Source: Xiphias gladius
Taxonomy: Eukaryota > Chordata > Actinopteri > Istiophoriformes > Xiphiidae
DNA: 64,000 nt
Direction: 5' to 3'
Assembly: GCF_016859285.1 (NCBI RefSeq)
Contig: NC_053402.1
Span: 7,032,031 to 7,096,030, forward strand
Part shown: positions 609 to 49,100 of the stretch, in pieces
Numbering within the stretch: the first letter of the stretch is position 1
Layout: each line of letters begins with the position of its first letter
The notes under the pieces: model-generated
Told to the model about the DNA's origin: nothing
What the model saw: the letters and a program-made list of their open reading frames with translations, nothing else
The model's database searches: none
Made by a program: the position numbers and the translations under genes

Positions 609-3600
609 TTATCTTACTGTTCCAGTGTTGTGTAGTCTGTTGTCCTGAGCTTGGGCCAGGCCATCCACTGCAACTTCACTCTGCTCACTGAAACAGAGGA
701 TTTGTACATTGATTAGACGGAATAAGTCAGAATTAAACTCCAAAACAAAAGACCAACATCTCTGCAAATGCCATACCTGAGAATTTACCCCGGGAAAGAG
801 CTACATGACTACTCTGTAAGATTATAACTGCAACACTGTGATATAGCAAATCAACAAAATTTACTCTGTTATTCATACAGCATTCCTTTTAGTTCAGTGG
901 TTCCCAACCTTTTCTGTCTGATGTACTGCCACAGCCCTATCTGATTACCTAAATGTTGTTAATCATGTTTTCATTATTTTTAGCTAACTATTTCAACCAT
1001 TTATCCACTACTTGTAACTTGTCACCTCTTCTCCATTATTATTAGCCAACTATAATTCAGCCATATTCATTACGTTAAGCTTTTCCACCATATTTTCATT
1101 ACTTCTTATGAGCTAACTTTAACCTCTTTATGCACTACTTTTACCAAATTAAACCATTGTCTACTCCTTTTAGTTTTTTCACTTTTTATCCAATTCTTTA
1201 GCTAAATATCTTAACTGTTTATCAAATACCTTTAGCGAACTATTTCAGCTGTTTATCTATTACTTTTAGCTAACTGTTAACACTGCTTCAACTCTGCTCA
1301 GCTGCTAGTTTTCATGTACTCTCATTCGGATAACGTAATGTTCAGTATGTGAATTTTTCTTTTCAATCTTAATTTCTATTTTTTAAAATTATTCGAGCTA
1401 CTCCACAATCGTTGCACGTATCCCCCAGACACTATACAAGTATAGTTAATGTCTAATACTACTCTCTTTGCAACTTGTGTTTACTGTGTATGTCTTCAGT
1501 CTTTCCATACCTTGGTGTTTGTTGAGTTGAGCAATCTATTTTCTGTGATAATGTGTCATCTGAATCACGTGTACCTGCAAGAAGAGCGGCAACAGGGAAC
1601 AGAGAGTGAATTTTACAGTGCATAGAATGAGTAGAAGCATACATACACTCTACATGTACAGTACTTACTGTATGTATGAAGGCTTGCGCACCACAATAAA
1701 ACAATTTGTGTATTAATAACTACACATAAATAATAATAAAAAAATTTTTTTTTAAAAATTAAAAAAAAAGAAAAAAACACTGTCAGAAGGAGCATCAGAT
1801 TGGTGCGCTTACTAAGTTTTGCCAACTGACTGGACAAACTATTGCTGGTAACTGATGCAACTCCTGACTCCTGAGACTCAGCTGTGACATTGAGGTCCGT
1901 TAGGTTGACATACGAGTGGCTCTGAGAAAGAAAGAGCAATACATTGAAAATCAACAACGCAACCATTTCATAAAATTATGAGTGTTGAGCTTTTAAGAAT
2001 AACAACTAATTCATTCATTTGTGCCTTGTTCTTTACCTTCTGTTTTGTATTTTGACCATTTGTTATCCGTCTTTCAAACCTGTAAATGGAAAAACAATAG
2101 TATATCATCATCAATACGGGAAATACAATTCTCTTATTTTGTTAATAATAAGGCATAATAATAATAATATTAATAATAATAATGCAGCCAACCTGTGGTA
2201 GCGAGTGAAGGCGGTGTTCATTTCATCATTTGTTGCCAGTAACTCTTCAATCAGCCTCTCTTCACTGAGTCTGGGGACGATCTTCACTATCCTCTCTTGC
2301 ATTTCCTTACATACAGTGTATAACTGCTAATGACACAATCAAACAAAGAATGTGTGGGTGGGGGGTTGAGGGGGCAGATGCAACACAGAAATGTATATAG
2401 TCCGAGATCAGTTAAGGGTAACGCAGTGTTACTCATCATGAATAGATGGAAATTGTTTTCTTGTAACAGAAAGGGCAGAGAATACTACACATTACTATAA
2501 AAAAAAAAAAAACCCACAAGTATGTTTTTTTATTTTCATTTTTTTACCTCCAGCAGCTCCATTTCTGCTTGTTTAACGGTAACAGGATCGAGCTGACGCA
2601 TCATGTCCGACATCATGGTTAGGTTGCTACGCACCACTCCCAGCTCTGTCTTCAGCATTTTTACCTGGAATATCAATAGTATTTCCTAAATAAACACAGC
2701 TATAATAGCTCCTTGCAAAGACAAATATTGATTTCATAAATGTTGGAGTAACAGGCCAGAATGAATTGTAGACATTAAGAGGATTTTGACCCGAGTTGCG
2801 AGACAGCATTTCAGCCAATGTCTGCGATTAATAGGAATACAGTGCAATTTAAATACTAAAATATCCCACTGAAATTCAGCAAGGCCCATCACCTGGCTTG
2901 GAGTGAAGACATTTGTTCCCTCTAGGGCCAGTTTTAGTTCAGAGGTTCGGGATGGGATGAGCGGAGGTTTGGAAGAAAGGAGCACAGCAGGCAGAGTAGT
3001 GACAGCAGGCCCATTCCCAGGCAAAGTCTGGTAGGCAAAGGCATAGAAATGACCCAAAATAAAAATGACCAAAGGCGATAGGTAAGCACCTAGCTATCAG
3101 CAGTAACAACAAAATGCACCCAGTCATGTTTGCACCTTTTGGGCGGCTTGCACAGGTGAGTAACCATCCAGTTCTGTCATGGGGAACTCAAGCCCTTTCC
3201 TTCGCAGGTCTTCGTACACTGACACCACACCCGTCAGGTCGGGTGAGCTACGGAATGCATCAGCCCACGCCTTGACAAGATAAAACCACAAATTACTACC
3301 AGGCAGCTGAGCAAGGCAATAACAGGAAAACTCAAATACAGCAACAACAACAACCTAATTTTATGTTACATGCAACCACACCTCATGCCTCACCTGTATA
3401 ATGCTGAGCACTCTGTCATGCAGAACTAGTGGAGGGTTGTTCCTTGGGATGATGGACCGGACCAGAACCCCTTCTATAAAATCCCGTGTTGTCACCAGGA
3501 TGTGAAACCTGTACCCACAGTTCTTCACACAGGTCTCCAGGAGCTGACATCAGAAGAACACAACAAATCAAACCATGTCTGATATCTGATTACACTTGAC

Positions 3601-19584: not shown

Positions 19585-21414
19585 TCAGTGGTTTATCCTC
19601 CTTCCATAGTTATTATTGCTTTTGTCGGCTTCCATCGCTTTATCAAGCCAGTCTCTTTCCTGTTCAGACTCTGAGTCACTGGCTTCACTTGCATTAGCCG
19701 CCAAAAGGCGAGAGTAGTTAATCCTGCGCTGGCGAGGGGCCTTGCACCGGAGCAGAAGCAGACACACACACCACACCATCAGACCCACTGCCACTCCTCT
19801 GAACAGCCACGTCAGCCCAAACCACTGCACCACGAACCCTCCAGAAAAGCTACCCAGCCCACTTCCTAGATGTAGAGAAAGCACACTGTAGACCCTCCTC
19901 ACACTCCTCTCTGCCCCCGGCGTGGCAACATCCTCACTCTGGACCTTCACAGCCCACCAGAGCGCTCCGCTGCTGAAACAACTCAATATCTGAGCAGGCA
20001 GTACAGCCCATGGTCCCCAGAGGAAGGAGTAATAAAAGCACTGTAGGCCGAGACTTGCAGTCCCCACTGCGAGCAACCTTCCTGGGCTGAGGAGTTTGGA
20101 CACTCGTCCAGCCAGCAATGGGAAGGAGGCCTGTGAGAGCAGACCGAGGGCTAGAGACAATCCCATGTGCAGCTCATTGCCCCCATGATCCTGCATCTGC
20201 CACAGGAGGAAGTTATCCATGGCCGAGCCCGCCACCCCAACCAGCAGGGTGGTGACAGCACAGAGCAGAGCGCGGGAGGAGCCACGCACCAGCTGCATGG
20301 CTTTCAGGAGCCTGTTAGCCCTGTCTCGCTTTTTGTTCAGGTAAAGAGGGAGGTAGGTAGCTACGGGCAGGGCCAGAGCAGCAGAAACAGCGTAGCAGTA
20401 GAAATGTACCGCGCTCCTGGGAGTCTGACCAGCTATAAGACAGCTCAACTGGCTGACCAGCAACCCTGCTCCTCCAACCCCACATGCTGCTCCCAGTAGA
20501 CCCCACAGCCCGGCGCTGCTGTAGTGGTCTGAAGCATCCGCAAAATCTAGATATTCGTACAATCCGTCGTCTGCTGTCCACTCCAGAGGGGCTGACACAG
20601 ACTCCAACACCGAGACAATGATGAGTATCAAGAAGAAGAGTTGGTGTTCAGTGTCCATGACCTTAAGGTTGTCCAGAAAGTAAAAACTGCTCTCCTCTGT
20701 CTTCTTTTCTCCTTGCAGTTCTTCAGACACTGAATTGAAGTTTGACCTCTTATTCCTCACAGCAGTTGTCAAAGATCTGGTGGCATGATACACAACAGAG
20801 CTGTTGATCATTGGTTCTCGAAGACTGTTGTCGACCACAACAGAAAGACTTTCTTGTGACAGTTGAGGATGAGATTTATCATTACCATGCTGATAAAGTG
20901 ATGTTTTGCTCATCATAACAGGAACAGAATTAGTATCTGAAAGTGTCTTTGCAGGAAACGTGACACTAGGCTGGGAAACAAAATCTTTCGGGCGATTTCT
21001 AGTTGACAATGTTTCAGGTCCAATGCTACTCATTAGCAGGTTATCACCAAGACTTTGGACTGGACCGCTGCTCAGATCAGACATGTTACAGTTGCTGCTC
21101 TGTGTGTGCACATCTGAAGGAGGGATAATCAGCAAAACCAGAGCGACTGCTGCTGAACACACAAGAGAGCCATTTATCACCACTCGCCTCTTGTTGTAGT
21201 GCTTAGAGAGTAGGCTTGCAACAGGGCTCCAGACTAGCGATATCAGGTGTTTAGTACCCATGATGATGCCTGTCATTGCAGGAGTCAGGCCCAGCTGTCT
21301 GAAGTACAGGGTGAGGAAGGGGAGCAGGCAGGCTTTGGCACAGGAGCACAAGAAGTTAAATGTGCCAGCCAGGACGAGGGCACGCTTGATATCAATCTGT
21401 TTATTCCTCTTCAT
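19585..21414 (-). CDS. mfsd6l: Major facilitator superfamily domain-containing protein 6-like
   Basis: An intronless ORF encoding an orphan MFS membrane protein of about 609 aa (human MFSD6L is 586). I chose the ATG at 21414-21412 (MKRNKQIDIKRALVLAG). It aligns with the human start, and an in-frame extension of 39 codons upstream (to 21531) looks like a chance hydrophobic leader. Early segments FLTLYFRQLGLTPAMTGIIM and MGTKHLISLVWSPVASLLSK match the family. A long polar loop (about residues 105-255) separates the first helices from APLEWTADDGLYEYLDFADA, the conserved MFSD6-type signature. Later helices include HFYCYAVSAALALPVATYL and FGLTWLFRGVAVGLMVW. The tail INYSRLLAANASEASDSESE followed by DWLDKAM matches human. 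Substrate unknown. It lies on the same strand as pik3r6/pik3r5, as in human. Confidence 0.93.
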   Translation of the reverse strand: MKRNKQIDIKRALVLAGTFNFLCSCAKACLLPFLTLYFRQLGLTPAMTGIIMGTKHLISLVWSPVASLLSKHYNKRRVVINGSLVCSAAVALVLLIIPPSDVHTQSSNCNMSDLSSGPVQSLGDNLLMSSIGPETLSTRNRPKDFVSQPSVTFPAKTLSDTNSVPVMMSKTSLYQHGNDKSHPQLSQESLSVVVDNSLREPMINSSVVYHATRSLTTAVRNKRSNFNSVSEELQGEKKTEESSFYFLDNLKVMDTEHQLFFLILIIVSVLESVSAPLEWTADDGLYEYLDFADASDHYSSAGLWGLLGAACGVGGAGLLVSQLSCLIAGQTPRSAVHFYCYAVSAALALPVATYLPLYLNKKRDRANRLLKAMQLVRGSSRALLCAVTTLLVGVAGSAMDNFLLWQMQDHGGNELHMGLSLALGLLSQASFPLLAGRVSKLLSPGRLLAVGTASLGLQCFYYSFLWGPWAVLPAQILSCFSSGALWWAVKVQSEDVATPGAERSVRRVYSVLSLHLGSGLGSFSGGFVVQWFGLTWLFRGVAVGLMVWCVCLLLLRCKAPRQRRINYSRLLAANASEASDSESEQERDWLDKAMEADKSNNNYGRRINH

Positions 21415-21662
21415 GATTGTCCTCCTGGGCAGCTCACAGTCTCTTCTAATAGGTTTCACATGGAGCGACTGGTTGGATTCAAACAGAGAGACACAGCTGA
21501 ACAGAAAGATGGAAAATAATAAAGTTAACACAAAAAATATTAGAGTAATTAGTGCTTATGTCGTCCAGTACTACTCATTTGGAATCAGTACCTATTTGAA
21601 AGGTATCAGTGCTTTTCATTTGCAGTTGCAAGGTTCTTACAAAGGCTATGATTACTTTCGTT

Positions 21663-24355: not shown

Positions 24356-24982
24356 ATTGTTAATTCATACTTACTTCATTTTTACATTATTTATATACCA
24401 CCAAAGTAGCTGGAATCATGTTAGACAGAAAAGGGCATTTTGAACCCATATTATCAAGTCTTACCAAACTAAGAGGCCCCTAAGGGCCTAACATTACAAT
24501 AATAATTGCATTAAATTAAATTCAATAGAATAGAACAACACTGTATTCTAACACTGAACACCATGTAACACACAATGAAGTGCTGACAGAATATTATGTA
24601 CAGCGGTATGCATGATCGGTACAGATGAAAAAGACAGCTCATGTCCCTCACAGGGTCACACCAGTGAAGGTGTTGATTGGCAGTGACAGGACTTTGACAA
24701 TACTTGCTCAGTGGCAGTTCTCACTCATTACTGATACTGAACCTGGAGCAGATGCTGCATCCTGGGTCCAAGCATGGAGAAAGTTCTATCCTGTAAAGCA
24801 ATGACATGACATTTTAGTACAGTTTCAATTGGCTCAAGGTGAAATTGAAAAAAAAAAAAGTGTAAAAGACAGACAGACAGATAGAGAGCGTTTGATGGTC
24901 CATTGTCCTGATGCTGATGTTTTGGGTTTGGAAACGGAAAAGCTTTAGACAACTTAACAGTTTCTATTGAAGGTTCAATTAC

Positions 24983-25387
24983 TATGGAAGTCGAGAAGGG
25001 CCGTACTTGCAATTATTTTTTAAGATGCCGTTATCTCGAGATTACAAGTTAATTATTTGGTTATCTTGAGATAACAAAGCTGGTTTTCTCATGACAATGA
25101 GTTAATTCATCTCGTTGTCTCAAGAAAACGAGCTTCGTTATCTTAATATAAAGAAATAATTAACCCAGGGTTTAATTTGTTTTATATCCCAGATAGGTAC
25201 TGGCACCTATTTGATTGGATCGGACACCTCCTTTGTTACTATCAAAATCTGTAAATTAATATTGTGTAATATTTAATGCTATTTGTTCTGTCATTCTTTT
25301 ATTTCCGTTTGAAGTTACTCATAAATCGCTCGTTTGCCTATTTTGGATGCATTTTAAATCAGATTTTTTTTTTAAATGCGAGAGAGG

Positions 25388-25425
<38 letters not shown>

Positions 25426-26197
25426 GCTGAGGGATCGAGAGTTGGTTGTGATTGGCCAATGAGCCCAGTCCCGGACGCCAGGAACGCCCATGCTCTCATG
25501 CACAGTGCGAATGACAGCAGACACACAGAGAGGGCTGGAATAAACTGAATTTTCTGACAGTCCACCGGTTTCCCGATACGGCAGGCCACCCGGATTTGTC
25601 TGCGAATGCTCATTGGCCAATCCAACTATACACAGAACGCATCAGAAAATCCACAGTGCCTTGCGCGCACTGTACAACGCCTAAGTGCTGGCTGTCAAAA
25701 CTAAATAACCATGTCATCACAAAGAAAGCACGATTTATTTACGGACAATAATCAGAGCATTTAAATTAATCACTCAAAATCAGCAGGGGAAGGAGCGTTG
25801 AAATAGCTGTTTGCCTCTTACAGCTCTCTCTCTCTCTCATTGCCTGTCCCTTCACTTCCCTGTCATTTCCCTTCTCTCTGTGGATTGCCTCAAAGGAGGG
25901 GAAAAGGAATTTATTAATATAATTTACAAAATTTATTCACAAATTTTGTGACAAAGAAGACCAATCAAATAGGTGCCGGTCCCAATCTGGGAGGTCCCGG
26001 ATCCTGTTCCGGCAGGATGCGGCACAGATCAAGGCCTGGATTAATTATTTCGTTAGATACCAGAGCCTCGTTTTCTTGAGATAACTAGATAAATCAACCT
26101 GTTATCATGAGAAAGATAACAAAATACTTAACTCGTTATTTCGAGATAACGTCATTCAAAAAAATAATTGCAAGTATGGCTGTTGTGGGCTTCCATA
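24983..26197. mobile_element. 1.2-kb non-autonomous DNA transposon with long inverted repeats and a 6-bp target duplication
   Basis: The left end TATGGAAGTCGAGAAGGGCC and the reverse complement of the right end TATGGAAGCCCACAACAGCC continue in parallel (both with TACTTGCAATTATTTTTT). The inverted repeats run to roughly 240 bp: inner pair CACCTATTTGATTGG at about 25205-25219 and its complement at about 25963-25977. Both ends are flanked by AATTAC (24977-24982 and 26198-26203), a perfect duplication. Subterminal copies of GTTATCTCGAGATAAC-like palindromes occur on both sides. There is no transposase; the core has a GA microsatellite. It lies in an inferred pik3r6 intron. Confidence 0.85.
25380..25426 (+). 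repeat. (GA)n microsatellite
   Basis: A nearly pure GA run inside the transposon core. It produces spurious serine/leucine or arginine/glutamate open frames on both strands. Confidence 0.9.
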
Positions 26198-27081
26198 AAT
26201 TACAGCAGTACAACTACCATAAATATAACTTCAAATTATAATAGTAATAATAATTTCATAAATCATCTAATTAGCCTATATTCCTAAATAGATGTAAATA
26301 ACTTCTTACGGTTTTGCATCCTGGGTTCACACTGTCAAAAGTGACAGTAAGGTAATCCTCACCTAGACAAAGTGAAAAGAAACTACTCATATTTTATAAA
26401 GGAAATCCTCTTGTGTTATCCTAAAGCTGTCAACTAAATGTAAACACAAATCCATACGAAACGTCAAACTATTTTTACAGCGGCCAGCTCTGATGTAATC
26501 ACCATGCCACATGTCTGGGTGCTTCTCCCATTACAACTTTTCATTTGCTTAAATAGGTCTGTTAAAGATATAAAAGAAAGTTGGCCTTAGTTAGCCCAAA
26601 TGCCACTGTTAATGTTAATACTTAGTAGGAAACATTACAATATGACTATTTAAATTAAGACCTTTTAAGCAGATTTAAGTACCTTTGTATAACTGGCTGT
26701 GATGGTTGCCCCAAAGACTTCCACTGCTGACTTCTTTCTGCGTGCAGAAGGTTCCTCTGTCATAGACAACAACTTTATGTAACTATTCAGTTAAGGAACT
26801 CTGGTCAGTATCCACACACATACATACAGAGAGAGAAGGAGATTAAGGAACATACTTGAAACCCTTTCTTTAAGGTGTCTGAACTCTAGGATGTCTGCCT
26901 CCAGATTGGACACAGAGACCTCCTCCACCACAGAACTCACATCATAGCTGGAGCAGGTCATCTAAATACATGCTGTATTTAGTCAAAGCAAGGAGTACAT
27001 GTGTAAATCATTGACAGCATCTACCAGAGTGTGCAATGCACTGTGTACTGTATTTCAATCAGAAAATGTATTAAAATTCTT

Positions 27082-27660
27082 TACTTAAAGCTGCATAACT
27101 ACATGATTGGCCACTAGGGGGCAGCACTAGAAGATCAAAACAACATTTACATACAGTTTGGGTATCACCTTATATAGTTGTTAGGATGAATGTCTTAGCA
27201 AAAAGTTGCCTTTATACACATTCATTAGACACGATACTACTTGAGCATTCATTACGAGTCATTTTGTGCCCTCCATGTTCACTCTCCTATTAGCTGTTTT
27301 GGTCTCCATTAAAGCAAAATATCTGGCTCTTTACCTGCTAATTGTTCAATTGTCTTTACCAGCTATTTGCTAACTTTGTCTGCTGTTTGCTGCTGACCAG
27401 GTAATACATTTATCAGTTTTTTATTGTAATCTGTGGCCCTAATGCAGCTGGACACGAGGGTGATGAGAGCAGAGTTTGCGGGCCAGAAAATCAAAACAGT
27501 GAGCTGTAGGAGGGTGAGGAAAAACTCTAGAGAGCTGAGAGAAACTTCAGAGTTGGGCATTTTTTCTCTGTGGGTTCACCACAGTGGGAAAACCATTTCA
27601 GACTACTATGGTAAATCCATTGTTAATTTAAAGGATTATTAATAAATGCAGCTTTAAGTA
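27082..27660. mobile_element. MITE-like element with exact 15-bp terminal inverted repeats
   Basis: The left end TACTTAAAGCTGCAT is the exact reverse complement of the right end ATGCAGCTTTAAGTA (27646-27660). The match extends to 17 bp with the flanking TT/AA. TA at each end could be a TA target duplication, as in Tc1/mariner-type elements. No transposase. It lies in an inferred pik3r6 intron and carries the CTCF-like motif at 27111. Confidence 0.7.
27111..27124 (+). promoter_or_regulatory. CTCF-consensus motif carried by the MITE
   Basis: CCACTAGGGGGCAG fits the CTCF core CCASYAGRKGGCRS at every position. It lies 29 bp inside the left end of the element at 27082-27660. Match only; binding is not shown. 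Confidence 0.55.
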
Positions 27661-29289
27661 AAAGTAGCAATTCCACAATAAATACTCCATTATTCTGTTT
27701 TAACAAAATATACAGTACTCTTATTAATGTGATAATATTGTATTTCTGGAACTTCTGTCGACATATGAAAACCAAACCTTGCTCTTTGACAATTTGCATG
27801 CATGTAAATTAATATCTATACACACAACTGGCTGCATCTCACAGTGAAGGTAGTAACACAGGGTGTCCAGTAGGAAGAGGTTTTGCTCTGATGGCTTGCT
27901 GAAATTAGAGTGCTGCAGTAGACAGACATCACAGAAGGAAGGCGGTATCAGATGAACACTCCTTCTGCTGCTCTTGTCATCATAAGCTTGCTTACCACCA
28001 GAGCCTGAGCCTGTCTACAACTTTGGTATGCTGTCCCCAGCCCCTTCTGCAGAACACGTATCATTTGATTTTTCTTCACGGTTGATGTATCCCTGGATAA
28101 GCTGGATACTTCCAAATATGCTCTTACTGTTGCTTCCAGTGGAGCAGAAAACACAGCTGGTTCTGCGAGCACGAACACCATGAAAGAACCGAGAAAAGGA
28201 GAAGCAGGAGCCAGTATGGTTGTGATAAAATAGTTTATTTAGTGTTACTCCGATTTATTAACACAATACATGCTGAAAGTCATTACTCACCTTTCCTGCA
28301 AGATGAAATGCTTATTCTTCAAATTCTGCTCTGCAATGACTCTCCTCTGATATAAAGAGCATGTTGAGGGAAGGATTTGTCTGTAAAGAGTGTTTATTTT
28401 ACGGCATTATGCCAGTGTTGGATAGGATGTGTGGTATTGTGTATAGCTGATTTCAGCTTTTTGAAAATGTGTCCATTGATGCATTATACTTGGTGTGGTC
28501 ATTTCCATCTTAATGCTCAGGGCCACGGCAGAGTAAGGCAATGGTAATGGTACACTCTCTGGTAAAGTCTGGTAGGAATCATGGAACCTGACTGGAAAGT
28601 TAAAATATTGCAATAGCAAATCAATGAGACAGAAAATACTACTAATAATGCATATTCAATTAATTCATCTATACACTATTCACAACTATAAAAAGCTCCA
28701 GACTTTATATATTTATATCATATTGCCAACTCTGTATAACACAGATGTGTTTTACCTGAATAACGTCATCTACACAGAGAGAAACACACAAGCTTTTGCC
28801 AATCTACAAAACATTTGATGACTAGACTTTCATTTTGAAATCTTGAAGTAGAGTTGAGGGACAAATCTTACCAACCTGCTTTAGCTTCTTCTCCAGCTCT
28901 TTGGCCAGCACACTGATCAAGGGAACGCTGCAGGATGGATCAGTCTCCACCTTCTTCTCAAGATTCTATCTTCACAATCCTGCAGAGCAGACGGACAGTT
29001 GTTTGCTTTATATCTGACTATGAACATTACACAGTGGGTTAGCTGAGACAACATGTAGTCCAGTGTTGATAATACATTACAAATAAAAAACAATCTTATC
29101 ATTTAAATTAATAGTCTAGATATTATGGAGAGATCCACCTTATTATAAGAGCTCCAAACAGGTTATGAAGCCACAAAAGTAAGGAAATGGAAAAGATAGC
29201 TAGTTTTACATTTTGCTATATGATCCTTTCTTTATGTTTTATTCTATCAAATCTTACAAAGAATTGTTCGACATGGTTAGACTTTCATT

Positions 29290-31195: not shown

Positions 31196-40034
<8,839 letters not shown>

Positions 40035-44310: not shown

Positions 44311-45128
44311 GACAAGGGATGATTTCCTTTGAACACATCAGTTGATAGCAAAGATGTGGATTGGTGGTTTATGGTAACATCAGCATTCAAACCCCATTCT
44401 GTAATTGCTAACGTAACCAAAACATATCCTGATGATTGAAGATGTAGATAAATGTGTAACTCTAGCTTTTTTTATCTTCAAATTACAAGAGCTTTCTACT
44501 GGCCTGGTCATTAGGACTAGAGGAGTGTATTTTTTTTAAATGTAGTTCAGATATTCTACCAGAAGATGTCTCCCTCCACAGAGACACCCAAAAGGCTCCC
44601 ACTCCTTTCCTCTGAATGAGTGGACCCCCTTTTTTCTATTACAACAGCGAGGAAATGGGACGGTAGAGATAGAGGTGGGCAGAGGTGTGACTGAGTGGAC
44701 AGGCAGAGGCAGAAGCAGACTCAGAGCCAGCTGGGCATTTGCCATATCTCATTTTTATTTAGGAATTTCATAGAACGGGGGAAAAGCTGAAGTATTCTAG
44801 CAGTAGTGTTTTTTTTGTGCGTAAACGGGATAGGTTATTCAAATTCTTAGGAGTTCTGCTACACTTTCAGACTGAGGAGTTTATTTGGAAGTAGTGTCCT
44901 GGGTGGAGTTTTCTTTGCCTCGTAAGAATATTTCATACACATTTAGTGTTACATGCTTCACTAGTGCGTCCAAGTTTTTTTTCCAAAGATCTCTCTGAGC
45001 ATCGTTTAAGTGTTTTATTGTTTTATACTTGCATTGACTTTGTGTGTATCGTAATTTATTCTAGTGTTATTAATTTTGATTATTTTGTCTTCATTACATT
45101 TCAGCGCAAGAGTCCCGCAAGGATTATA

Positions 45129-46143
45129 ATGCGAAGGATTTTGGAGGTTTGGGTCACCTTGGTGACAGTTTCTGCGCTGACCAAGGGGGTCTTTGCAGGA
45201 TACGGGCTGAGCATGTTTGCTGCGCAGTCTTCCCCTCCAGACCCGTGCTATGATGAGAACGGGAACCCGCGGAGATGCATCCCCGATTTCGTCAACTCCG
45301 CTTTTGGGAAGGACGTTCGCGTATCCAGCACCTGCGGCAGCCCGGCCGCCAGGTACTGTGTGGTGACCGAGAAGGGAGAGGAGAGGACGAGGGACTGTCA
45401 CACGTGCGACGCCGGGGATCCCAAGAAGTCCCGTCCTCCTGCGTATTTAACAGACCTCAACAACCCTCACAACCTCACCTGCTGGCAGTCTGAAAACTAC
45501 GTGCAGTATCCGCAAAACGTCACCCTCACCCTGTCACTGGGTAAAAAGTTTGAGGTCACCTATGTGAGCCTGCAGTTCTGCTCACCTAGACCCGAGTCCA
45601 TTGCCATCTACAAGTCTATGGACTATGGCAAATCATGGGTGCCGTTTCAGTTTTATTCCACTCAGTGCAAGAAAATGTACAACAGGCAGAATAAGGCAAC
45701 AATTACCAAGCAGAACGAGCAAGAGGCCATCTGCACGGACTCCCACACAGACATGCACCCTCTGACAGGTGGACTCATCGCCTTCAGCACTCTGGACGGC
45801 AGACCGTCGGCGCACGACTTCGACAACTCCCCGGTGCTACAGGACTGGGTGACGGCCACCGACATAAAGGTGATCTTCAGCCGGCTTCACACTTTCGGAG
45901 ACGAGAACGAGGACGACTCGGAGCTGGCCCGCGACTCTTACTTTTACGCCGTGTCGGACCTGCAGGTCGGAGGTCGGTGCAAGTGCAACGGACACGCTTC
46001 AAAGTGCGTTAAGGACAGAGAAGGGAATCTGGTTTGTGAGTGCAAACACAACACGGCGGGACCCGAGTGCGACAGGTGCAAACCTTTCCACTATGACCGA
46101 CCCTGGCAGCGAGCCACGGCCAGAGAAGCCAATGAGTGTATAG
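45129..46143 (+). CDS. ntn1: Netrin-1, first coding exon (partial gene)
   Basis: Secreted laminin-related guidance cue for DCC/UNC5/neogenin receptors. The exon encodes 338 residues plus one base. Start: [20 protein letters not shown] is a signal peptide, probably cleaved near GVFA/GYG. The ATG at 45129 lies 24 bp after a splice acceptor (TTACATTTCAG, 45094-45104), so a 5' UTR intron is likely; the in-frame codons further upstream would then be intronic. The laminin N-terminal (domain VI) shows [58 protein letters not shown] and [20 protein letters not shown]; then the first laminin EGF-like repeat starts at [13 protein letters not shown] and runs to [20 protein letters not shown]. The donor is TATAG|GTAAGT after ANECI. 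High GC compared with its flanks. Other exons are outside the window. Teleosts have two ntn1 copies; I cannot say which. Confidence 0.96.
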
Positions 46144-49100
46144 GTAAGTCATTCACTATGTTGGCCTTTACTTAGGAATTGTTTTAGCGATTAAAATAAT
46201 TCGATAGTAAATTATATTACCCCATTCATTTAATAGATGCTGTTAACATTAACCATTTTTACTATCCAGCCTTCACGCACAAAAATTACACTCCGACTAG
46301 TTGGTAATTCGTTAATGTGAATTGTATATTTGCTTTTTGTCTTACTGGGAATGGAATACAGATACAACTCTCTCCTGAAAGGATGATGTTTTTGAATTTG
46401 TTTTTGTCTGTAATATAGAGAGATACTTGTGCTATAGGCACAAATTAATCGATGGCGATTTGACTTTAAATTAGGGTATAGTTATTTTTATTCCGGCCAA
46501 ATAAATCCTAGCTGAGGCAAAGAGAGAGGGAGGCCTCCACGACCTAAACGGCAATCGACCCATTCTGATTTTTAAATTCAAGAGACGGTTTCATCGAATT
46601 AAATGAAATCTTTTATGAAATTGCTCATTCTAAAATTAATACATCTTCTTGCTGGTAAATGTAGATGAATTTAGTACAATTTAAGCCTAAATAATAGCAG
46701 CTCGTTTAAAGAAATTGTTAAATTTAGTCCTTCAATTTCGGCAGAGAAATTGACATTGTATTTATCAAAACAGGACCCGCCTTCAATGCACACATTTTAG
46801 CTGACTTACTATGCATTTTGTTGACCCTTGATTTTTATCGCCCTCCAGGAGAAATTCCTGAATAGGAACGAAAAGGCAGGAAGTCGTTTCAATAAACAAA
46901 GTGCGCCTGTCCGAATGCGTGATTGAGTTTTTAACCCGTGTTTCCGACTGTAGTAGAGGTTTAATAGGACTGAAACATTGCAGCTGCAGAGATAGACTGC
47001 AGGGGCGTGTTGTGTTTCCATAAGCAGGTGCTATTACAGATTGGATGGGCGATTAGGGCGGTTTTATTGACATTTTTGGCACGTCGAGTATAAACTGCCG
47101 CTTTCGAGCCAGTATACTATTCAGAGAGGTGGACAAAGCGCGGGGTAATTTGAAGCCAGATCTGAGTTTTTATTGTAGCAGCAGCGAGCGAGTGTATTTG
47201 CTGTGATGCTTATTTTCGACAGAGCTGGGGGCTTATATCAACAGCTCAAGCCCCCGGAGCTACAGCGAAGCAAACCTGGAAAAGTAACAAGTTCCAACAC
47301 TGCCATGGTTTGCTCAACCAAACGGAACAAGTGAACAAGTTGTTCCCCTTGGCCTCCGCCTTTCGCCTGTACAAAGCTAGCATGTGAGTGTATTTTACTA
47401 AAACAAAAGCTTGTCACTTGTGGCATCCATCTCGCTGTCAGTGGGAGGCCCCCCGTTCACCATCTCGCTTTTTGTGTGAGCGATGTCATCAGATAAAACC
47501 ACAGAAAAGCCAGACTGAGCATGTCTTCCAAAGAGGAAATAATAAGGGTGGCCTGACACCTTAGCATGAAAGAAGAAGACCCAGGGGAGGGGCTGTTTCC
47601 ATTGAGCAGTGGGTCTATATGGTCTGGCAGTGGGGATTCAGAGTGGTTGATGCTATTGATCTCTCTGGATTTCTCCTCCCTGCTGTAGGGCATTAGGATA
47701 TTAAGAGAAGAGTGGGAAAAAGAGGTGTGGTTATGGCAGAGTAGTTGGTTTCACTCACTGGTGGCAGGCATCAAGGAAGTAAGAAAGTCAGTTTCCCATG
47801 ACTTTGCATGGAGGGTTGCCGTCATGTTGTCAAGAAGCATTTATGTTGGCAGCAGCTGCTTTCACATTCCTGTCAAGTGGAGCTGCATGACTTACAAGTA
47901 TGTCCATAACACCAGGGCCAGAGGGGTGGCCAGGAGTGGCACAGGTCCCCCTCGTATCTGATTGGTCACCAAAGACATTGGATCTACAAATACATTTGTA
48001 GTCATGTTGTGTCTCTTTAGGTCGGGGTGTCTGGTTTTTAAATAGGAGGGACCGGGGGGGGGGCTTTTACATGTCCAGTTTCGTCCGTTGTCTCATAATC
48101 TGCCCAAGGCTGTAGGCTATTTGGAGTTACAAATACTAGCTATTAATTGATATTATTTTATATTAGAATATTTCAAGTTATTTATTTGGCAAACTTGGCA
48201 ATCACACTGAACAAACAATGTAACTATTGATAATGTATCGTTTATTACTGCCAAGAAGCACAGCTTTAAATGTGATTCTAATCACATTTTTACTACTTAC
48301 AAATGTGCCACTCTTCTTCTGTGCCCCAGTCTGCCTCCCCAGTCATGAGTTTCTAAAACATGCAAACGAATAGCTTTAATACATTAAACCACGATAACGT
48401 TCGACCATGAGCCGTAATAATTTCTGTAAAGCAATGAAGAAGGTCTAGAAACACACACATACACACACACACATATGGTGACACGTCAGGCTCTCCTGTC
48501 CCCGGCAGCTGCTTCATATTCTCTCCATGTTCAGCATAGCACTGACCCCTGACTGTCAGCTCCCCGCTCCTCTCCGGCCTGACTGATGGGCTGTGAAGCA
48601 AACTGTGGGAAACTTCTCCTTGCCAAGTGGGTTTTGAGGCAAGTTGAAAATGGTAGCCTCCGTCACTCATATGTGTAATTTTGCACTTGTTCAATTTCAA
48701 CTTTGTTTATGCTGTCACCCTGCCATGCGATGTTCTGTTTTATAATGGCTAAGAGTCAGCTGGAGGTTCAATCCATCCTGTTTCCTTGTAGTTGTGATGT
48801 GCTTTCAGAGTACACTTTCGTGCACAGAACCACTACATGTCTGTTCTTACACTCGGCAGGCTTTTTTTCTGGCTTCAGATGTATTTGATATGAAAGAAAA
48901 TTTTAAAGAGAGACTTGGAATTTCATCAAGTCAGGTACCATCTGTCCTGGTAGAAAGCACTTTGTTTTTGCGCTCTGCTCGAAGTATTTGGTATTTATCA
49001 TACCTACACAGAAATCTTTATGAGGAAAAGCTGACAAGTTTGCCACCCACAAGGTAGCTGAATTAGGATATGATTGTCTCAATTGCCTGCTGGCTCTGCA

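Follow-up and report, generated by a model that had tools for sequence, protein, structure and literature searches.

In the human gene order, PIK3R5 and PIK3R6, the genes of p101 and p84, lie in the proximity of NTN1. An excerpt of PMC6770443 places human PIK3R6 close to PIK3R5 on chromosome 17 and deals with what p84 and p101 do in neutrophils, and an excerpt of PMC11720314 gives residues 22–94 as the helical p110-gamma-binding part of p84 and residues 520–613 as its G-beta-gamma-binding part. Here, we examined a 64-kb stretch of contig C3 (positions 7032031–7096030, hereafter “the window”) in a genome assembly that was searched at 690.8 Mb in 1298 contigs, and whose gene content suggests that the source is a teleost fish. 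On the minus strand, beside a readable pik3r5, pieces of pik3r6 extend from about position 28979 to 24648. We consider, with a probability of about 0.93, that they represent a decayed pseudogene from a duplicated pair, of which the other member, on contig C15, appears readable and which most likely arose in the teleost genome duplication.

A p84 remnant beside pik3r5

The joined blocks, with short extensions, matched a single PDB sequence at E-values up to 10, namely mouse p84 (8aj8, E = 7.9e-9), and by this search the remnant is nearer to p84 than to p101. It resembles mouse and human PIK3R6 in block sequence, in block order, and in its place beside PIK3R5; it stands in tandem with pik3r5 and near a netrin-type gene, and its intron phases are those of the window's own pik3r5. 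Mouse p84 was split into 19 segments at pik3r5-type exon borders, and each segment was scored on the minus strand of 31190–21600 against 100 dinucleotide shuffles, with 11 follow-up tests of the intervals between anchors (500 shuffles each). Seven of the 19 segments (E2, E4, E5, E11, E13, E17a, and E17b) were never equalled by the shuffles, and in the same whole-region scan E16 was equalled in 1/100 and E6 in 7/100. In the interval tests, shuffles equalled the 5' part of E4 in 1/500 cases, its 3' part in 0/500, E6 in 4/500, and E16 in 0/500; when E14–E16 was sought as a single piece, 13/500 were as good. The ten accepted pieces, from E2, E4 (two), E5, E6, E11, E13, E16, and E17 (two), are colinear on one strand in the order of p84. 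E12 and E14 were below significance by profile alone in both the whole region and the intervals, and E1, E3, E7, E9a, E9b, E10, and E15 were not above chance in the minus-strand scan or the anchor intervals. For the joined remnant and two single pieces, the Pfam search for PF10486 returned no family at E up to 1. The parts of the remnant, in p84 order, are as follows.

28876–28979, minus strand: remnant E2, with acceptor and phase as in pik3r5
28490–28591, minus strand: remnant E4, frameshifted, with LYQRVYHYH in one frame and PYSAVALSIKMEM in another; weak donor CAA/GTATAA
28361–28362, minus strand: AT where the AG of the E5 acceptor is expected from phase and homology (pik3r5 and mouse p84)
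28291–28360, minus strand: remnant E5, SLYQRRVIAEQNLKNKHFILQE; good donor AAG/GTGAGT
28180–28181, minus strand: AT where the AG of the E6 acceptor is expected from phase and homology
27996–28179, minus strand: remnant E6, with VFVLAEPAVFSAP; good donor GTG/GTAAGC
27913–27995, minus strand: E6–E11 intron, 83 nt, phase 0 at both ends, at the place expected for E7–E10
27826–27912, minus strand: remnant E11, NLFLLDTLCYYLHCEMQPV, 3' end shortened
26856–26961, minus strand: remnant E12, open, matched by a rockfish pik3r6b forward primer
26683–26756, minus strand: remnant E13, open, EPSARRKKSAVEVFGATITASYTK, GT and AG sites present
26525–26558, minus strand: 5' part of remnant E14, with TGA at 26543–26541, matched by the rockfish reverse primer
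24983–26197, no strand: inverted-repeat element of 1.2 kb between E14 and E16; terminal inverted repeats of 85 nt, 82% complementary
24875–24963, minus strand: probable remnant E16, FRFQTQNISIRTMDHQTLSICL, running on into a TCTG repeat
24648–24790, minus strand: remnant E17 (last exon), IELSPCLDPG, TGA, LSKYC, frameshift, LSLPINTFTGVTL, and the stop at 24650–24648

Nine separate lesions were counted in this copy: two stops in E2, the E4 frameshift, two lost acceptors, the loss of E7–E10, a stop in E14, and a stop and a frameshift in E17. The E2 stops, TGA at 28974–28972 and TAG at 28968–28966, fall at mouse p84 positions 35 and 37; tblastn aligned GL-stop-R-stop-NLEKKVE with mouse GMWRWSLHKKVE, position 37 being Trp in both mouse and the C15 copy, and position 35 being Trp in mouse and Leu in the C15 copy. 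Because the first stop is already at position 35, the window copy as read could supply neither binding part of p84, and no open frame with the p110-gamma- and G-beta-gamma-binding parts was found in it. In E4, the frame switches between LYQRVYHYH and PYSAVAL, where, relative to mouse p84 and the C15 copy, the missing stretch comprises about 8 codons and a further out-of-frame amount, and 4 further codons have been lost downstream of the frame change. The donor of E6 and the acceptor of E11 are good and in phase 0, with only 83 nt between them; thus, E7–E10 (mouse residues 216–506, 291 residues) are gone, and those residues had no above-chance match in 28030–27900, where 316/500 shuffles were equally good. 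The E14 TGA corresponds to CGA in the rockfish primer and, as aligned by hand, to Arg604 in mouse p84. In E17, LSKYC lies in frame past the TGA (24723–24721) and a frameshift precedes LSLPINTFTGVTL; neither half was equalled in 100 shuffles, and the C-terminal motif LPINTFTGV runs to the final stop. Compared with mouse p84, the window copy has stops, frameshifts, and lost splice sites and lacks residues 216–506, and it probably yields no protein product.

A first-pass annotation, made from the letters of the window, had placed ordered p84 blocks at 24721–28965. The blocks are there, on the minus strand and in p84 order, as the PDB match and the shuffles show, but the remnant reaches further at both ends, from the E2 start at 28979 to the stop at 24650–24648, and E12, E13, E14, E16, and the 1.2-kb element were absent from that annotation. 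It had also read LTLP and PYSAVAL in two frames from overlapping bases, attributed to a small deletion near 28535–28545. A frame change and a frameshifting loss stand, but the loss has the larger extent given above, and LTLP shares the bases of PYSA, so that one of the two is a chance reading. The absence of an AG acceptor before VFVLAEP agrees with the AT at the expected E6 acceptor, whereas the central loss, put at about 230 residues, is real but amounts to 291 mouse residues by pik3r5-type borders.

Several candidate readings were set aside. The first spliced alignments of the remnant gave spurious exons distant from the anchors; EDYLTVTFDS at about 26365 was dropped as E16 because the place at 24.9 kb scores better; E14, at first read in a different frame, was reassigned once the rockfish primer had set the frame; and an E8 match (1/100 shuffles) was placed inside E4, out of order. 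The 24983–26197 element also holds nested inverted repeats (foldback-like), and blastn of the element against the window returned only its own arms.

The second pik3r6 on C15 and the rockfish pik3r6b

A genome-wide search with PF10486 gave 31 matches, all in two pik3r5 genes, the second of which is on C15; as this profile is blind to p84 pieces, a third p84 copy would be beyond the reach of that scan. The C15 block was examined by tblastn in 90 kb around the second pik3r5. The genes compared between the two blocks are as follows.

31196–40034 of the window, minus strand: readable pik3r5 (p101), 17 exons and 853 residues by spliced alignment
19585–21555 of the window, minus strand: open single-exon gene of an MFS-type transporter (Pfam MFS_1_like, 2.6e-39), downstream of the remnant interval, presumably mfsd6l by its position
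44895–46175 of the window, plus strand: netrin-type exon (Laminin_N, 2e-84), which we take to be ntn1 from its position and domains
about 14699–10920 of the window, minus strand: exons of a bMERB-domain gene (Pfam 5.5e-23 for the joined pieces), presumably bmerb1-like
C15, 20227258–20226224: netrin exon (tblastn)
C15, about 20241009–20254467: pik3r5 (tblastn)
C15, 20266785 to 20277264: p84 matches (tblastn)
C15, 20265728–20277261: pik3r6 as aligned with mouse p84
C15, 20286269–20291137: bmerb-like gene (tblastn)

The order and relative orientation of ntn1, pik3r5, pik3r6, and bmerb on C15 are the same as in the window, and the teleost genome duplication is the most likely source of such a duplicated block. 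A second pik3r6 in the other ntn1 region, which the first-pass annotation had raised as something to look for, is present on C15 and apparently readable. When mouse p84 was aligned to C15 with stops and frameshifts forbidden, the score was 1149.7, with 20 exons, 804 residues, and 740/756 mouse residues paired, whereas the window copy under the same strict settings scored 148.1 with 192 residues paired. By rough site weights, both splice sites are above zero at 15/19 junctions of the C15 gene, which differs from the window copy in its readable frame and in having kept the central exons. Across eight blocks, aligned and gapped by hand, the remnant and the C15 copy are identical at 77/139 residues; over the same blocks, identities with mouse number 66 for the remnant and 80 for the C15 copy.

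The pik3r5 gene of the window contains no stops or frameshifts, and 16/16 of its introns are GT-AG, a count that is partly built in since the spliced aligner is restricted to AG acceptors and to GT or GC donors. The C15 pik3r5 aligns to pig p101 without a frameshift, with one junction scoring poorly; p101 thus seems to be encoded twice in this fish. Contig C18 carries one exon of a p110-gamma-type gene (best PDB match p110-gamma, E = 6.7e-80). The MFS gene had no tblastn match in the 90 kb of C15 at E up to 1, and a paralogue of the bMERB-domain gene of the window sits on C15. Elsewhere in the window, exons with VHS (weak, E = 0.0028, under the curated cut-off) and GAT (8.5e-12) domains lie at 3354–2111 on the minus strand, presumably TOM1-like. 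Intron 4 of pik3r5 contains a diverged tandem array at 37665–37880 with units of ~34 nt, and a 34-nt unit similar to it by eye is found again at 1181–1273.

Quantitative PCR primers for pik3r6b of the marbled rockfish Sebastiscus marmoratus are given in an excerpt of PMC9913653. At ≤3 mismatches, each has one match in the window, where 0.01 would be expected by chance: the forward primer at 26890–26871 in E12 with 1 mismatch, and the reverse primer at 26525–26544 in E14 with 3 mismatches, so that 36/40 bases are the same. The predicted spliced product, E12-E13-E14, is 143 nt, compared with the 140 reported for rockfish in that excerpt, and the rockfish primer translated in the E12–E14 frame reads REVVKG. 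At the homologous places of the C15 copy, the mismatches of these primers rise to 7 and 8. Of the two copies, the window one fits the primers and is thus most likely orthologous to rockfish pik3r6b. The rockfish gene is transcribed in gill (6.25 FPKM, fragments per kilobase per million, in the control, 26.64 in high salt, and 11.71 in low salt, in the excerpted part of PMC9913653) and has a CGA codon where the window copy has TGA. A transcribed orthologue therefore most likely exists in rockfish, and the loss most likely came after the split from rockfish, as two primers from one relative suggest.

Alternatives to a decayed duplicate

The pseudogene reading draws on several separate lesions in one copy and on a paralogous block with a readable copy. 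The first-pass annotation described pik3r6 as dying beside an intact pik3r5; the loss of this copy is strongly supported and pik3r5 is clean, but the copy is better called dead than dying. A large duplication would have left two ntn1-pik3r5-pik3r6-bmerb blocks, on C3 and C15; the C15 copy would have kept its readable frame while the C3 copy was released from selection, probably once its lineage had separated from that of rockfish, in which the orthologue is still transcribed. The C3 copy would then have accrued stops, frameshifts, splice-site losses, the central exon loss, and a mobile-element insertion, an order and timing of lesions that we infer.

A number of observations weigh against this reading. 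E1, E3, and E15 were not found in the window copy. In the control on the plus strand, E9a reached a score of 34.7, higher than 100/100 shuffles, for which a GA repeat is our guess as the cause; together with the misplaced E8, this control means that marginal single-segment scores carry little weight. The acceptor losses of E5 and E6 are judged by homology and phase, not from the genomic DNA of an intact orthologue; the rockfish link consists of two 20-base primers from one relative; and both copies were judged here from genomic DNA alone. On the C15 side, the pairing leaves the first exon and the junction of E14 with E15 in doubt. Only weak in-phase donors are present at E14/E15 (20276113–20276414), the strict path takes poor donors there and, with GC, at E15/E16, the permissive alignment has a frameshift at E14/E15 with 7 stops after it in that path, and the C15 locus yielded no first coding exon with an ATG.

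These last points are what would favor a true loss of p84, in which the C15 copy is broken at E14/E15 too and PI3K-gamma is left with p101 only. That junction may use an unusual splice site or carry a young lesion; however, a weak donor suffices to explain it, a path free of stops and frameshifts pairs nearly all of mouse p84, both splice sites are above zero at most junctions, and further p84 copies may exist elsewhere in the genome, so that we regard a true loss as improbable. Still less credible is that the window copy remains protein-coding, whether by unusual splicing or from an alternative start (a short E11–E13 product, for example). E12 and E13 both read open, and joining at their sites preserves the frame, but the in-frame TGA of E14 follows soon after E13, two stops interrupt E2, the frame is shifted in E4 and E17, and acceptors are lacking at E5 and E6. 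As for an intact gene disguised by assembly or sequencing errors, error is conceivable for a few single-base differences taken by themselves, but nothing was found in favor of assembly errors, the lesions differ in kind and are scattered across 4.3 kb, pik3r5 on one side of the remnant is clean and the MFS gene on the other is open, and about 290 codons were lost with tidy intron flanks; we give this explanation the least credence of all. A decayed duplicate with a readable partner on C15 is accordingly the explanation that we retain.

Consequences for PI3K-gamma in this fish

Annotation pipelines may place a fragment gene at the remnant. Among the matches listed, covering titles and the starts of abstracts, none described a loss of pik3r6 in a fish. 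Excerpts of transcriptome papers on medaka and protogynous fishes name pik3r6 or pik3r6b with the duplicate unspecified, and expression studies of fish “pik3r6b” should specify which duplicate is meant. It is conceivable, though rather unlikely, that related percomorphs long kept two p84 and two p101 genes, that this lineage recently lost one p84 but retained both p101 genes, and that the balance of PI3K-gamma shifts to p101; otherwise, this is most likely a routine loss of a duplicate.

In sum, the genome appears to hold p101 in two readable copies and p84 in one readable and one dead copy, along with an exon of a p110-gamma-type gene. The first-pass annotation had proposed that PI3K-gamma in this fish would depend only on p101, a tempting claim that the apparently readable C15 copy contradicts and corrects. 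Because that copy looks able to supply p84, dependence on p101 alone does not follow, the neutrophil roles of p84 and p101 are not shown to be altered here, and p101 is probably not the only such subunit available to PI3K-gamma in this fish.

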